Source: Candidatus Brocadia sapporoensis (GTDB lineage Bacteria; Planctomycetota; Brocadiia; Brocadiales; Brocadiaceae). Taken from it: 56,049 bases of DNA. Every line of letters begins with the position of its first letter. The first letter of the stretch is position 1. Positions 4,535-45,249 of the stretch are shown one piece after another. The stretch covers positions 1-56,049 of the forward strand of contig NZ_MJUW02000040.1 of NCBI RefSeq assembly GCF_001753675.2, written 5' to 3'. Position numbers and translations under genes: made by a program. The notes under the pieces were generated by a model. It was not told where the DNA came from. It saw only the letters and a list, made by a program, of their open reading frames with translations, and ran no database searches.

Positions 4535-7500
4535 ATGAGACTAAAAAAACTGGAATTATTTGGGTTTAAATCTTTCGCAGAAAAAACTGAAATCGCCTTT
4601 GAGGATGGAATAACCGTCATTGTGGGACCGAATGGATGCGGGAAGAGCAATGTCATTGATGCGCTCAAGTGGGTGCTTGGTGAGCAGAGCGTAAAGTCAC
4701 TTCGGGGCAACGAAATGGCAGATGTGATTTTCAATGGAACGGATAAACGTCCATCCCTGGGTTATGCCGAGGTATCCCTGACCATCCAAAATAATAAAGG
4801 ACTGTTACCTCTCGAATACTCCGAGGTCTGTATAACCCGCCGTTTGTACACCTCGGGAGAATCTGAATATTTTCTCAACAAACAGGCAAGCAGACTAAAA
4901 GATATCCGCGAGCTTTTTCTGGATACTGGTTTTGGAGCAAATGCCTATTCTGTCATTGAGCAGGGCAACGTGGAGGCCATGCTGCAGGCGGATTCTCGTG
5001 AGAGACGGACATTGTTTGAAGAAGCAGCCGGTATCAGCAAGTTTAAATCGCGTAAAAAAACAGCCTTGAGTAAGCTTGAACATGTTGAACAAAATCTCCT
5101 CCGGGTTGGTGACATTGTTGAGGAACTGCAGAAGCAGCTCCGGTCGGTGAAGCTCCAGGCGTCAAAGGCGCGAAAATACCAGGAATATGTAGAACATCTC
5201 AAAAAATTAAAGATCGGTCTCTCGCTACGGAACTATCGTGATTTCAAAGGGAAAAAGACAACTATTTCTGAGCAGGTCAACCAGGCAGTAGAACAAAACA
5301 ACGCGATCGTTGCCGGATTGAACGAGCTTGAAGTGCAAATAACGGCAATTGAGGGCATAGTAGGGCAATTAGAGAAGCAATTGTCGCAGATGCAGACGGA
5401 ACGGATAAATTTGGAGACGCAAATCTCTAAAAATCAGGACAAAATAAAATATAATCACGAACGCATGAAAGAATTGGAAATGCTCCGTGAAAAATATGCT
5501 GAACAACAAAAGGGTCTCGAAAACAAAGTGCTTGAGGTAAACAACAAGATTACAGAGACAAAGGAAATGGTGAATACCGTAACGCAGGAAATGATAAAAT
5601 TTGCTGATATCCAGAAGGCAAAAGAGGTTTTCCAGAAAGAGATCAGCTTCGAATGCGACATGCTGTATCAGGGTATTGACGAAAAGAAGTCCGAGGTTAT
5701 CTCGATCCTTCAACAAGAATCCAGCCTCCAGAATGAAATTGGCAGCCTGACCACCGAAAAAGACGCCTTGAAAGGCAGAAAAATACGGCTTTCCAGAAGA
5801 CAAGAGGAAATTACTTCAGTCGTGGATATCCTGACGTCCAAATATGAGGAGATTACAAAGGAAAAGAATACCCTCGTGGAAGAATTTCATGGCTTAGACC
5901 AGAAACTATCCACCTCAAAAGGACGTATACAAGAACTCGTGAGTATGATGCGTTCTCTGGACGAACAAATCAATCAGCAAAAACAATTGCAGAGCAGTAA
6001 GATCTCCCGCCATGAAGTGCTTATGGATTTTGAAATGCGTGCGGAGGGTGTAGAATCCGGTGCAAAGGCTATTTTGGATGAGTCCAAAAAGGATCCCGCA
6101 GCCGTAAGCGGCATCCGGGGCATGATTGCCGATCTGGTTAAAGTCGACCTCCCATATGCATTGGCTATCGAGACTGCCCTCGGTGAAAGGGTTCAGGGGA
6201 TTATCACCGATACCACCGATAATGCTGTCCAGGCGGTTGCATTCCTGCAGAAGAGTCAAAAAGGACACGCAATCTTTTTCCCGTTGGATAGAACCAATGA
6301 CTACCCCTCTATTCCTGAAGAAATTCTGCAAAAACCCGATGTCGTCGGTGTCGCACGCAAATTCGTTAACAGTACGGAAGCGGTTTGCAAGGTGGTCGAT
6401 GGTTTTCTGAATAATACAATCATTGTAAAGGATCTTACCGCCGCACTTGCCATGGGCTGCAACAATCGTACTGTCCGGTACGTTACCCTTGACGGCGCAC
6501 TGCTAGAACCCGACGGTGCGCTCAGCGGTGGCAAGAAGCAAGGGCAGGTGGGCATCATATCCCGGAAAAGCGAGCTGAAGAAGATCGAGGAGGAATTGAT
6601 TCACATCCGGCAAATCCTTGAGAAATTGGAAATGGACAAACAATATCACATCGAGGAAATTACCGGACTTGAAGTGGAAACTGCCCAGCTGGCAAAGAGA
6701 ATCGAACAGATAAACATCCTGAAGATTTCAAAGGACAATGAGATTACCCAAAATGAACAGAAGCGGGACGAACTCACGGCAGAGAAAAAAATCAATGAAA
6801 ATGAGATGGAAGAGATCGATGTGGAAGTGGAAAACGCTTCTGAACGTGAGCGAAGTTTACAGGCAGAATTAATGCATTTCAATCAGCAACACAAGCAGTT
6901 AGAACAACAGGTTGAAGAGTCTGCTATGCTTGTGGAAGAAAAAGAGCTTTTAAAAAAGAATGTTCAGGAGGAAATAACTGCGGTTAAAATCGGCCTTGCG
7001 CAAAGACAGGAAAAGAAAGACGGTCTGGACAAAGCGTCGCATAAACTCGATGCCGAGTTACTGGAAGCACAAGAACAGATTACCCTGAGCATGCGAGAAC
7101 GCGAGGAGTGTCAGAAAAAAAAGCAGGAAGCTGAAGCGGAGATTAAACACATGGAACTTCTTCTCCGTGAACTCGATACACAAAGGATAGCTTTGGAAGA
7201 GTCGATAGTTTCTTGCAAGACGGAGCGGGATGGCCATAATCTGAAAACCACAGAATTGAAGGAACACCTTGATGAAAAGCGTGCAGAGCAGAAACACTTC
7301 GAGCAACAGATCCAGGAATTAAAACTCAAGGAAAACGAGTATCACATCCGTCTCTCCAATCTTGAAGAGCGTGTACGGGAGGAATATCACGTTGAGTTGT
7401 CAGATTTAGATAATACTACCGATGAAATTAAATTGGAACTCACCACGTCACAGCCGGAATCTACCGATCCAACCCAACTCCAGGTTGATTTTTGGGAGAC

Positions 7501-8158
7501 AGTTTCCAAGGAAATCGAGGAACTGCAGGGAAAGATCGGAAGGCTGGGGAATGTGAACCTGGAGGCCATCAAAGAGCAAGATGAGCTGGAGATTCGCGAG
7601 ACATTTCTGGTAAATCAGAAAGAAGACCTTGAGAAATCCCAGGATGCGCTGCAGAATCTGATAAAAAAGATCAACCATACCAGCCGCGAATTGTTTGAAA
7701 AAGTATTCAACGACATCCGCCAGAATTTCCAGGTGATGTTCCGAAAATTATTTGGCGGGGGTAAAGGCGACATAATCCTGGAGGAAAATGTGGACATCCT
7801 GGAGGCGGGCATTGAGATCATGGCGCAGCCACCCAGTAAAGAACTCCGTTCAATTACCCTCCTCTCCGGTGGTGAAAAGGTAATGACCACCGTAGCGCTC
7901 CTTTTTGCAGTATTCCAATCAAAACCCAGCCCATTCTGCATCCTGGACGAGGCAGATGCCGCCCTGGATGAGAGCAACATAAATAGGTTTACCCACATTC
8001 TGAAGGAATTTACCAAAGACACGCAATTTCTCGTAATTACCCACAACAAGGTGACCATGAGCGTTGCCGATGTAATGTACGGAATTACCATGCAAGAACC
8101 GGGCGTATCTATGAAGGTGGCCGTTAAATTCGAGGAAATCGAGAAGAAGGTTGCGTAA
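4535..8158 (+). CDS. smc: Chromosome segregation protein SMC
   Basis: SMC forms the ATP-driven condensin ring that organises and segregates chromosomes. The 1207-residue protein has an N-terminal ATPase half with Walker A GPNGCGKSN (about residues 32-40), two long coiled-coil arms, a hinge near residues 515-660, and the C-terminal ATPase half with LSGGEK (near residue 1110) and Walker B FCILDEADAALDE. Length and order match bacterial SMC. The start is the usual MRLKKLELFGFKSF. ScpA and ScpB are not adjacent. It is flanked by a terminator upstream and an independent promoter downstream, so it looks monocistronic. Confidence 0.96.
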   Translation: MRLKKLELFGFKSFAEKTEIAFEDGITVIVGPNGCGKSNVIDALKWVLGEQSVKSLRGNEMADVIFNGTDKRPSLGYAEVSLTIQNNKGLLPLEYSEVCITRRLYTSGESEYFLNKQASRLKDIRELFLDTGFGANAYSVIEQGNVEAMLQADSRERRTLFEEAAGISKFKSRKKTALSKLEHVEQNLLRVGDIVEELQKQLRSVKLQASKARKYQEYVEHLKKLKIGLSLRNYRDFKGKKTTISEQVNQAVEQNNAIVAGLNELEVQITAIEGIVGQLEKQLSQMQTERINLETQISKNQDKIKYNHERMKELEMLREKYAEQQKGLENKVLEVNNKITETKEMVNTVTQEMIKFADIQKAKEVFQKEISFECDMLYQGIDEKKSEVISILQQESSLQNEIGSLTTEKDALKGRKIRLSRRQEEITSVVDILTSKYEEITKEKNTLVEEFHGLDQKLSTSKGRIQELVSMMRSLDEQINQQKQLQSSKISRHEVLMDFEMRAEGVESGAKAILDESKKDPAAVSGIRGMIADLVKVDLPYALAIETALGERVQGIITDTTDNAVQAVAFLQKSQKGHAIFFPLDRTNDYPSIPEEILQKPDVVGVARKFVNSTEAVCKVVDGFLNNTIIVKDLTAALAMGCNNRTVRYVTLDGALLEPDGALSGGKKQGQVGIISRKSELKKIEEELIHIRQILEKLEMDKQYHIEEITGLEVETAQLAKRIEQINILKISKDNEITQNEQKRDELTAEKKINENEMEEIDVEVENASERERSLQAELMHFNQQHKQLEQQVEESAMLVEEKELLKKNVQEEITAVKIGLAQRQEKKDGLDKASHKLDAELLEAQEQITLSMREREECQKKKQEAEAEIKHMELLLRELDTQRIALEESIVSCKTERDGHNLKTTELKEHLDEKRAEQKHFEQQIQELKLKENEYHIRLSNLEERVREEYHVELSDLDNTTDEIKLELTTSQPESTDPTQLQVDFWETVSKEIEELQGKIGRLGNVNLEAIKEQDELEIRETFLVNQKEDLEKSQDALQNLIKKINHTSRELFEKVFNDIRQNFQVMFRKLFGGGKGDIILEENVDILEAGIEIMAQPPSKELRSITLLSGGEKVMTTVALLFAVFQSKPSPFCILDEADAALDESNINRFTHILKEFTKDTQFLVITHNKVTMSVADVMYGITMQEPGVSMKVAVKFEEIEKKVA

Positions 8159-8192: not shown

Positions 8193-8221
8193 TTGACAAA
8201 AAACTGAGCACTTAGTATATT
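8193..8221 (+). promoter_or_regulatory. Sigma-70 promoter of the riboswitch transcript
   Basis: TTGACA at 8193-8198 and TATATT at 8216-8221 are separated by exactly 17 bp. The predicted start near 8228 lies just ahead of the fluoride aptamer, as expected for a riboswitch leader. Confidence 0.8.
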
Positions 8222-8238
8222 CCAAATCATAATTAAGA

Positions 8239-8321
8239 TTCAGGCGATGGAGTTCGCCTTAATTGCTATGTGATAGCTGATAACTCCTATTGAAGCTAAA
8301 TACTTCGATAGGAGTTTTTTT
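8239..8321 (+). promoter_or_regulatory. Fluoride riboswitch (crcB motif) with terminator
   Basis: The sequence has every landmark of the crcB/fluoride aptamer. Stem GGCG (8243-8246) pairs with CGCC (8255-8258) around the loop ATGGAGTT. A second stem GCTAT/ATAGC (8265-8277) is followed by CTGATAACTCCTA. The loop GGAGTT (8249-8254) can form the diagnostic pseudoknot with AACTCC (8282-8287). That same strand begins the left arm of an intrinsic terminator (8283-8295 with 8303-8315, then a T-run). Binding of fluoride would therefore prevent termination, the ON-switch arrangement known from Bacillus cereus crcB. The next gene is a dynamin-like GTPase rather than a fluoride exporter. Confidence 0.92.
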
Positions 8322-8330
8322 ATTTATAAG

Positions 8331-8368
8331 AACCCCTGTCAAAGACAAAGTCTCGACAGGGGTTTTTT
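8331..8368 (+). terminator. Second intrinsic terminator in the same leader
   Basis: AACCCCTGTC (8331-8340) pairs with GACAGGGGTT (8355-8364), extended inside by AGAC/GTCT, and is followed by a run of six T. No ORF lies between it and the riboswitch terminator. It ends just before the GTPase Shine-Dalgarno, so transcription must pass two terminators to reach the gene. Confidence 0.85.
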
Positions 8369-8387
8369 GTTATGGAGGAATTGTTCC

Positions 8388-10094
8388 ATGTTAGAAGAAT
8401 TTATAAGGCATAAGATCGAAATACTGGGCATCATTGAAAATGTCGAGGCATTGATGAGGAATGATGTGGGGGCCAAGGACAACAGGCTGTTCATGGTCAA
8501 AGAACAGTTGATATCAAATTGTTTTAATCTGGTGGTTTTAGGACAATTTAAAAGGGGCAAGACAACTCTTATTAATAGCCTGATCGGCGAGGAGATACTT
8601 CCCTCTTCCATAGTGCCGCTGACCTCTATCGTGACGATCATAAAGTATGGTGAAGAGATTGGTTGTTTGGTCTCCATGAAGGATGGCAGCGAAAAGAAGA
8701 TTTGCATAGAGGAACTTCCTGAATATGTGACAGAAAAGGGGAATCCTAAAAATATACGAGGCGTACGATGCGCACGCATCGGGTATCCATCCCCTTTCCT
8801 CGAAAAAGGGATACTGCTGGTAGATACGCCGGGAGTGGGATCCACCTTTCTGCACAATACAGAAACGACCTATGAATTTTTAGACCACCTGGATGCGGCA
8901 TTGTTCCTTATGAGCGCCGATGTTCCTGTCTCACAGGTAGAAAAAGAACTCCTCGATACCATCAAAGGCTCTACCCGGAAGATATTCTTTGTCTTGAATA
9001 AGATTGATAATTTTACTGCAAAAGAGATTGAAGAAATAGCCGCCTTCAATAAACAGGTACTGGAGGAGATGGGGTTTACCGTTCAGGAAATCTGGCCTGT
9101 CTCAGCCAGGGAAGCACTGAAGGCGAAAACTGTGAATAATGACATTCAACTTTCGCAGAGCGGTCTTTTGGGGCTGGAAGATGCCTTAGGGAGTTTTCTC
9201 TCTTTCGAGAAAGGTAAAATCGTCCTGAATACCACCATATCCAGGACAAAGCGGTTTGTCTCCCAGAAACTATCCCAGATAGCCATAGAGAAAAAGACTA
9301 TGGAGGCCTCCGGAGAAGAGTTAGAAAATAAGATTAACACATTTCATCAGCTTGTAGGGAACCTGAAGCAGGACAGGGAAGATATGAAATATCTGCTCAA
9401 GGGCGAATCAGACAAGCTGTGTTTCAAGGTGGAGGAGATGTTAAAGATTTTAGAAGAAAAGGAGACTCCAAGAGTCAAGCAGTGTCTCACGGATTTCTAT
9501 GAAAAAAATCCTGATCCCAATCCCACCGTTTTAAGGGACGAAATGCAGAAGGTTATCAAGGAGGAGATCATCAGGGGATTCGATGCATTCAGAAAGGATA
9601 CCGAGAAGGTAATCTCAAATAATATTCAAGAAACCTTTAATCGTTTTACAAGGCGTTCCAATAATATTATCAACGAGTTCAAAACGGCTGCCGAAATACT
9701 CTTTGAGGTATCTATGGAACAATGTGAATTTTCCGTTGAACTAGCCAGGGATACCGGTTTTTATTACATGATCCAGGAATATACCGCCCCTACGGAAGAA
9801 GAAGTCAAGTCCATCCTGCGCATCCTCTTGCCGAAATCCATGAGCAGAAAGATGGTCTTGAACGAGATGATGGAGCGGGTGTCCTCCGATGTGGGCAGGA
9901 ATTGTGGCAGGACACGCTCAGACCTTACAGCAAGGATCAGTAAAACCATTGACCATTATTCGAAACAACTGAAAGAGCTTGGGAATGACCTTATTGCACA
10001 GATAGAACAGGCCATACAAAAAGGACAAGAGAGACGAAGCGCGGGTAGTGAGTCGATACGGCTTGAGCAAGGGGTATTAACGAACAAGACCTGA
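8388..10094 (+). CDS. Dynamin-like GTPase under a fluoride riboswitch
   Basis: Large dynamin-family GTPases remodel or tether membranes. The 568-residue protein has P-loop GQFKRGKTTL (about residues 51-60), a Thr-rich switch I (VPLTSIVTI), G3 motif VDTPG (about 145) and G4 NKID (about 204). A long helical C-terminal part follows, with a hydrophobic paddle-like segment (ILRILLPKSM). The ATG at 8388 is chosen because GGAGGA lies 9 bp upstream; a TTG at 8367 is in the terminator T-run. The frame ends at TGA 10092-10094 but continues open in the same frame for 28 codons to TGA 10179-10181, adding an amphipathic helical tail (ALEEQKENLERVW). The tail may be truncated here. Control by fluoride is inferred from the leader. 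Confidence 0.88.
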   Translation: MLEEFIRHKIEILGIIENVEALMRNDVGAKDNRLFMVKEQLISNCFNLVVLGQFKRGKTTLINSLIGEEILPSSIVPLTSIVTIIKYGEEIGCLVSMKDGSEKKICIEELPEYVTEKGNPKNIRGVRCARIGYPSPFLEKGILLVDTPGVGSTFLHNTETTYEFLDHLDAALFLMSADVPVSQVEKELLDTIKGSTRKIFFVLNKIDNFTAKEIEEIAAFNKQVLEEMGFTVQEIWPVSAREALKAKTVNNDIQLSQSGLLGLEDALGSFLSFEKGKIVLNTTISRTKRFVSQKLSQIAIEKKTMEASGEELENKINTFHQLVGNLKQDREDMKYLLKGESDKLCFKVEEMLKILEEKETPRVKQCLTDFYEKNPDPNPTVLRDEMQKVIKEEIIRGFDAFRKDTEKVISNNIQETFNRFTRRSNNIINEFKTAAEILFEVSMEQCEFSVELARDTGFYYMIQEYTAPTEEEVKSILRILLPKSMSRKMVLNEMMERVSSDVGRNCGRTRSDLTARISKTIDHYSKQLKELGNDLIAQIEQAIQKGQERRSAGSESIRLEQGVLTNKT

Positions 10095-10181
10095 GCTCTG
10101 GAAGAGCAGAAAGAAAATCTGGAAAGGGTGTGGAACTCCGTAAATCTGATGGACGTAAAGACAGAACAGATGGTATTCTGA
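10095..10181 (+). pseudogene. In-frame C-terminal extension after TGA of the GTPase
   Basis: Immediately after the TGA, 28 in-frame sense codons encode a Glu/Lys/Leu-rich helical stretch that looks like the natural C-terminus of dynamin-like proteins, then stop. Just before the TGA the alternative frame reads GINEQDL, so a compensated pair of small indels around the GGGG run at 10070-10073 could also explain the stop. No SECIS-like structure was identified. Confidence 0.5.
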
Positions 10182-44109: not shown

Positions 44110-44153
44110 AAAAACCCCTCCGTCAGGTTATCTTTCAGAGGGGTTTTTATTTT
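44110..44153. terminator. Bidirectional terminator between kor operon and rnpB
   Basis: An arm AAAACCCCTC (44111-44120) pairs with GAGGGGTTTT (44138-44147), with A-tracts on the left and T-tracts on the right. It ends the kor transcript on the plus strand and the rnpB transcript on the minus strand. Confidence 0.88.
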
Positions 44154-44526
44154 GAGTAGACAATAAGCCGAGTCCTGTCGTGGATGGTCATTTATCTAGT
44201 CTCGTTGTTGCCAACGAGATCAAACGGTTCACCCGGAGGTATTACTGAAGCGGACCACTTCATCCCTCCCTATTTAACCTTTCTCCCAGTGGGGTTTGCC
44301 ATGCCTCCGATGTCACCACCAGAGCGGTGGGCTCTTGCATTAAGTCAATAATGACCCCGCCATTTCACCCTTATCCCATGAAAAGATGGGACGGTATATT
44401 TTCTGTTGCACTTTCCTTCCCGTCTCCGGGACTCCGCGTTACGGAGCACTGTGTCCTGTGGAGCTCGGACTTTCCTCCCGCTCTTTCGCGAAGAAGGGAA
44501 AGAGCCGGCGACCACCTTGTCTACTC
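44154..44526 (-). ncRNA. rnpB: RNase P RNA, class A
   Basis: The 373-nt minus-strand RNA processes tRNA 5-prime ends. Read on that strand the conserved blocks occur in order: GGAAAGTCCGAGCTCC (P4 side), GTGCAACAGAAAATATACC, AAGGGTGAAATGGCGGGG, AAGAGCCCACCG, ACATCGGAGGCATGGCAAA, and AGATAAATGACCATCC followed by ACAGGACTCGGCTTA near the 3-prime end. 5-prime (GAGTAGACAAGG) and 3-prime (TTGTCTACTC) ends pair as P1. The 5-prime end overlaps the stop of the zinc-ribbon gene by a few bases. Confidence 0.96.
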
Positions 44527-45249
44527 TTCCTCTAAATCCCCATCGCCATTATTCAGGAATAAAATACGGCCACAACTATGGCAGAAGGTGAGGTCTTTGC
44601 CTGACAAAAGTTGATTAAGCGTTTGAGCTGTAATGGACATAAAACATCCTTGACATACCTTGCTAACAACAGGAACTACTGCAACTGCATCCTTGTGGCT
44701 TACTAAACGATTGTAATGTTGTAAGGTGTCAGCATCAAGCATGGAGGTATATTTATCGCGCTTTTTTTTCATTTCATCTATCTCGGTGTCTATTGTTATC
44801 AGGTCTTTTTCCACATGTTTCTGGAGTTCTTTTAATTGCAAGTTTTCGTGTTCAATCGTTTTTTCAAATGATTTGTATCTCTGATTCATTTCTTCATACT
44901 TCGTCATCATGCCAAGGATTTCATCCTCCAGAATGGATTTATTTGCCTCCTTTCCTCCAATTTCTGTTTTTATTGCGTTATATTCTTTGTTTGTTTTGAC
45001 TTGATTCATCTGTGAGCGTAATTTGATAATCTCTGTTTCCATACTTTTCAAGTCAAGTTCCTTAAATCCGATGTCTTTTTGAAACGTCTTTATCTCTTCG
45101 TTCAGTTTTGACAAATCTGTTTTCTTTTGTTGGATTAAAGTAAGTTTTTTTTGAACATCGTAACTACGGTAGAGTTTATCACCTTCCAATCTTCGCAGTT
45201 TTGTATCTATTGATTGCAACCTCCGGAGTACCTCTATCCTTTCATTCAT
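44521..45249 (-). CDS. C4-type zinc-ribbon coiled-coil protein (COG1579)
   Basis: 242 residues: a long antiparallel coiled coil (about 1-180, rich in Leu, Lys and Glu) and a C-terminal zinc ribbon with CQGCFMSIT and FCHSCGRIL. The pattern is the COG1579 family, found in many bacteria, function unclear. The stop lies within the first bases of rnpB on the same strand, suggesting shared transcription. It is the third member after dnaG and rpoD. Confidence 0.88.
   Translation of the reverse strand: MNERIEVLRRLQSIDTKLRRLEGDKLYRSYDVQKKLTLIQQKKTDLSKLNEEIKTFQKDIGFKELDLKSMETEIIKLRSQMNQVKTNKEYNAIKTEIGGKEANKSILEDEILGMMTKYEEMNQRYKSFEKTIEHENLQLKELQKHVEKDLITIDTEIDEMKKKRDKYTSMLDADTLQHYNRLVSHKDAVAVVPVVSKVCQGCFMSITAQTLNQLLSGKDLTFCHSCGRILFLNNGDGDLEEE

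Follow-up and report, generated by a model that had tools for sequence, protein, structure and literature searches.

The window analysed here, a stretch of 56,049 nucleotides from Candidatus Brocadia sapporoensis, contains a gene for a dynamin-like GTPase with an SMC gene upstream and a ModE-like/molybdate region downstream. The gene is preceded by a leader in which we computed a promoter, a fluoride (crcB) riboswitch aptamer and two terminators (Table 1). The window also carries an RNase P RNA of class A (44149-44527, minus strand, 284.5 bits).

Table 1. Features of the riboswitch-dynamin locus (window coordinates)
Feature	Position	Strand	Details
Sigma-70-like promoter	8193..8221	+	TTGACA-17-TATATT, 11/12 matches
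Fluoride (crcB) riboswitch aptamer, RF01734	8234..8296	+	51.3 bits, E 2.3e-11
Pseudoknot 5' strand	8249..8254	+	GGAGTT; partner 8282-8287
Pseudoknot 3' strand (strand A)	8282..8287	+	AACTCC; opens left arm of terminator 1
Terminator 1 (T1, A-B)	8282..8321	+	arms 8282-8295 and 8303-8316, 14 pairs, U-run to 8321, dG -18.1 kcal/mol
Terminator 2 (T2, A2-B2)	8330..8368	+	arms ~8330-8344 and 8355-8364, U-run 8363-8368, dG -20.9 kcal/mol
Shine-Dalgarno	8374..8378	+	GGAGG
Dynamin-like GTPase, BDLP/mitofusin type	8388..10094	+	568 aa; ATG 8388, TGA 10092-10094; PF00350 97.8 bits
In-frame continuation homologous to C-terminus of relatives	10095..10178	+	profile match to 10175, one TGA inside

The original prediction had recognised a full crcB-motif aptamer with a GGAGTT/AACTCC pseudoknot, and a search with the Rfam covariance model RF01734 accepts it with a score well above the gathering score of 34 bits. 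It is the single match to this model in the 2.93 Mb genome (99.1% complete). Every invariant column of an alignment of 25 aptamer sequences is present in it, and both pseudoknot strands fall in conserved columns. Sequences similar to the -35 and -10 elements of the window lie 5' of the aptamer in relatives as well, and the leader folds far more stably than its shuffled versions (z -7.5). The left arm of T1 includes AACTCC, so the predicted overlap of terminator and pseudoknot is real; in our terminator survey, the pseudoknot strand is used by a terminator in 38 of the 57 leaders. At the level of sequence, the 8193-8368 leader is confirmed as a fluoride riboswitch with a pseudoknot-coupled expression platform, for which we infer the binding of fluoride itself. 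The crcB-type riboswitch of B. cereus (RF01734) shares with it the aptamer consensus, the pseudoknot, a terminator competing for the pseudoknot 3' strand and the ON logic. The window differs from that system in having a dynamin as target and two terminators with complementary arms.

The encoded protein is a dynamin-family GTPase with its own Shine-Dalgarno sequence, as predicted. Its GTPase motifs GQFKRGKT, DTPG and NKID are intact, and G1 to G4 are conserved in alignments. The closest solved sequence is Nostoc BDLP (2j68, E 2.9e-48). According to the predicted model (pLDDT 81.9), a GTPase domain is followed by neck and trunk helical bundles, and the computed fold matches IniA (Z 24.9 over 501 residues) and BDLP (Z 20.7 over 500), and also resembles mitofusins. 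This combination of GTPase domain and helical bundles is that of Nostoc BDLP (2j68/2j69), mycobacterial IniA (6j72), Campylobacter DLP1/2 (5owv) and mitofusin; unlike these, the window protein is fluoride-switched, and its identity to them in structure alignments is about 15-18%.

A TGA shortens the dynamin by some 30 residues relative to its relatives of about 600 aa, and roughly 29 homologous residues follow in frame. The window also lacks a gene for a 66-aa protein of no known family (MEKIIGIKDLQ...) that several congeners (L042, L045, L047, L048) and further members of the family possess; it lies between switch and dynamin at L048:8312-8512, L047:8120-8320 and L045:744-932. It could thus be argued that the locus is decaying in this strain, the switch being left before a non-functional dynamin, and the congener Ca. 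Brocadia pituitae indeed has an internally deleted dynamin (L042:7943-9233, minus strand, about 135 residues lost and the frame split). However, the 568 codons form an open and conserved frame that includes every GTPase motif, the aptamer and the terminators are intact, and a single assembly base could be in error. We find decay rather unlikely.

A search of relatives for crcB motifs in front of dynamin genes, proposed along with the original prediction, showed that the pair is conserved. Among 24 genomes of the anammox family, including that of the window, 18 have both aptamer and dynamin, six have neither, and none is discordant. A wider scan for dynamin relatives gave 80 loci, by their record titles from Planctomycetota, Desulfobacterota, Nitrospirota, Bacillota, Actinomycetota, KSB1, Bacteroidota and other phyla; in 77 of them an upstream aptamer could be tested for, with a covariance model built from the 25 aptamers. 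In 56 of the 77, an aptamer lies on the same strand and no more than 600 nt upstream, a fraction that may be inflated by the selection of these loci for similarity to aptamer-linked dynamins; it is further upstream in 8 more and absent from 13, most Scalindua loci among them. Across 392 Planctomycetota genomes, there are 21 strong dynamin matches for which upstream sequence is available: about 18 of them adjoin an aptamer (two scans joined by eye), one further match lies 1.7 kb downstream of an aptamer, and those in two genomes (G029, G032) have none. Weaker dynamin matches in the same 392 genomes have no adjoining aptamer. Consequently, the association belongs to this dynamin subfamily. Most Scalindua-like loci (L088, L091, L092) have a dynamin without aptamer, while L089 has one; the absence is perhaps linked to the constant fluoride of seawater.

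What was first noted for the window, the lack of a fluoride exporter, holds genome-wide for Fluc and CLC-F-like proteins. Fluc was not found, the best match having 14.3 bits and a frame broken by stops. The genome encodes two CLC proteins. In a comparison with solved structures, one scores 140 bits with ClcA versus 41 bits with CLC-F; the second was judged, by sequence motif only, not to be CLC-F-like. An exporter elsewhere in the genome was accordingly rejected. Among 39 relatives, the 9 with Fluc all lack a fluoride aptamer and the 20 with aptamers all lack Fluc.

The original description of the leader, correct for aptamer and T1, did not mention the strong second terminator-like hairpin, T2, between T1 and the gene. 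Here we call A the strand beginning AACUCC, B the right arm of T1, and A2 and B2 the left and right arms of T2. In the window, A2 is complementary to B as well as to B2, and this B-A2 complementarity exceeds that of shuffled sequences (p 0.003). T2 recurs at 28 anammox-family aptamers, and in nearly all of them its left arm mimics strand A. B and A2 also match each other better within a locus than when their partners are exchanged among loci (p 0.005, in a fixed-register test whose statistics ignore relatedness), while an energy-based permutation test of the within-locus coupling of T1 and T2 was not significant (p 0.18). The similarity of T1 and T2 could come from a duplication, a possible source which we counted against a functional pairing. 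With A held in the pseudoknot, most relatives are predicted to form B-A2 for as long as B2 is not yet transcribed. Once B2 is made, T2 is more stable, with modelled barriers from B-A2 to T2 of 2-16 kcal/mol (median 9.9); in the window, where B-A2 is weaker than in most relatives, the barrier is 6.8 kcal/mol. At equilibrium, T2 beats B-A2 in the window as in almost every relative, and any relay through B-A2 needs kinetic control for this reason.

We hypothesize that, without fluoride, strand A would join T1 and T2 could form behind it, so that transcription would stop. In the presence of fluoride and Mg2+, the aptamer would dock A into the GGAGUU/AACUCC pseudoknot and thereby block T1. The freed B would then pair with A2, which is transcribed ahead of B2, so that T2 would be delayed as well and the polymerase could reach the dynamin gene. 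The proposal that this four-strand relay opens both terminators at the window locus upon fluoride binding is for us an evenly balanced one.

As for the concern that transcripts might never reach the GTPase gene, T2 does stand before it, but the complementary antiterminator pairing offers a bypass. T2 could alternatively be an independent, constitutive fail-safe terminator, the switch yielding mainly short RNAs and dynamin being made weakly or from another promoter. It is indeed the stablest hairpin and wins the minimum-energy folds of the bound state. However, T2 is kept together with aptamer and T1 at the 28 family aptamers, the mimicry of strand A by its left arm is nearly general there, several non-anammox loci have a predicted terminator only in the second hairpin, and in the window the interval from T2 to the gene contains no sigma-70-like promoter. 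We hold a constitutive T2 to be improbable.

The non-anammox loci deserve further comment. In seven of them (L095, L097, L098, L104, L107, L113 and L127) there is a U-run only after the second hairpin and none after the first. With the arms set by hand, the same B-A2 pairing amounts in these seven to 6-10 contiguous pairs (shuffle p 0.000-0.018), and in all but L104 to 8-10 (p <=0.007). The same shuffle test gave p 0.038 in L099 and was not significant in L103, L115 and L119. To judge by their sequences, these non-anammox dynamin loci appear to follow the same strand logic with the second terminator alone. This logic would be that of anti-antiterminator, antiterminator and terminator, an independent hint for the relay.

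Taking aptamer, platform and conservation together, we consider it quite probable that the leader switches on transcription of a bacterial dynamin gene in response to fluoride, and that it forms part of a widespread and previously undescribed fluoride regulon. The shortened C-terminus of the window dynamin and the 13 loci without aptamer speak against this reading. Targets of the crcB motif named in PMC2864571 and PMC7266159 are crcB, eriC-F, mutS, K+/Cl- transport and formate hydrogen lyase genes, MutS, K+/Cl- transport and formate hydrogen lyase being already present in the former; dynamin is not among the targets in its text. In the open-licence literature, taken without supplements, in which an earlier listing is possible, we found no paper that ties a fluoride riboswitch to dynamin or to anammox bacteria.

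What the dynamin does under fluoride is a separate question. Its fold suggests membrane tethering or remodelling, in keeping with the membrane repair or remodelling first proposed, and it would most likely act on membranes (by tethering, sealing or remodelling) under an HF/F- burden. Since the sole aptamer of the genome precedes a dynamin, no recognised pump is present and the pairing recurs across phyla, we infer that the cell membrane probably has a part in fluoride stress, one that the open-licence literature searched does not describe. An anti-phage function, as in the Eleos system (LeoA/LeoBC), was rejected: the profile likeness to LeoA is weak (52.7 bits over part of the protein), no LeoBC partner lies beside the gene, and, unlike Eleos, the gene is riboswitch-controlled with SMC and ModE-like neighbours.

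The main rival on the role of dynamin starts from fluoride chemistry. Fluoro-metal complexes (AlFx, MgFx, BeFx) occupy the gamma-phosphate site of GTPases, and a replacement logic has been proposed for riboswitch-controlled enolase and pyrophosphatase genes, which encode fluoride-sensitive enzymes. Dynamin could likewise be overproduced since fluoride inhibits it, the switch replacing a poisoned enzyme instead of providing a defence. The intact GTPase motifs allow this, and GTPases do bind GDP.AlF4-, as in the Era structure 7c1o, which is among the fold matches. Yet among the genes that follow these aptamers we recognised no further GTPase, and the subfamily is absent from the aptamer-less genomes of the family. 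Because it is missing where the aptamer is missing, dynamin is not a housekeeping target in this family. Replacement is in our opinion quite unlikely, and we continue to favour a role of dynamin at the membrane.

Other genes with aptamers of their own lie near the dynamin in various loci. They encode CPA antiporters (PF00999), DUF6062 proteins, AAA ATPases, MutS-like proteins and NuoH-like subunits. The aptamer-led antiporter genes (Na+/H+ type), each with its own aptamer as the window dynamin has, occur next to dynamin in several phyla and by themselves in L049, and are absent beside the dynamin of the window. In other phyla, dynamin would work beside these separately fluoride-switched antiporters, DUF6062 proteins and others. 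A membrane-level defence against fluoride, conserved in anaerobic and anammox bacteria, has, we estimate, about an even chance of being the right reading of these data. It would consist of a switched dynamin, accompanied in many phyla by separately switched CPA, DUF6062, AAA, MutS-like and formate-hydrogenlyase-type genes; in the anammox family it would operate where Fluc is absent, and in part of the lineages it would use a four-strand relay and not a simple overlapping terminator.

So far, work on fluoride in bacteria has centred on export (Fluc, CLC-F) and on a small number of sensitive enzymes. That the gene behind a fluoride switch is repeatedly a dynamin, in this case in a family lacking Fluc, directs attention to the membrane as a place where fluoride does harm or is countered. 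For bacterial dynamins, most of which have obscure functions, this would provide a defined and testable inducing signal, and a relay-type expression platform is suggested for a fluoride riboswitch.

Often, a second aptamer in anammox-family genomes is followed by a stalk-only paralogue of dynamin that lacks the GTPase domain, an addition not shared by known bacterial dynamins; examples are L044:12358-13188, L039 (minus strand, 5336-6283), L050 (minus strand, 7286-8113) and L080:8028-8855. Some second-aptamer loci of the family also carry a pair of FNT (formate/nitrite) channels with a P-II protein (L044:13810-15650; L039, minus strand, 4929-5267), possible anion-transport members of the fluoride regulon. 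We considered FNT channels as the real fluoride gene, as they stand behind the second aptamer cluster in several relatives, but set this reading aside, the single FNT of the window genome lying on another contig. In Ca. Kuenenia hertensis (L080:9702-11580), there is a third aptamer with zinc-ribbon, HEAT, DUF6062 and AAA genes behind it. Two fluoride aptamers stand in tandem in one leader at L131:5618-5824 and on the minus strand of L040 (oriented 9353-9539), and five loci (L111, L130, L145, L153 and L157) have back-to-back divergent fluoride aptamers with genes on both strands.
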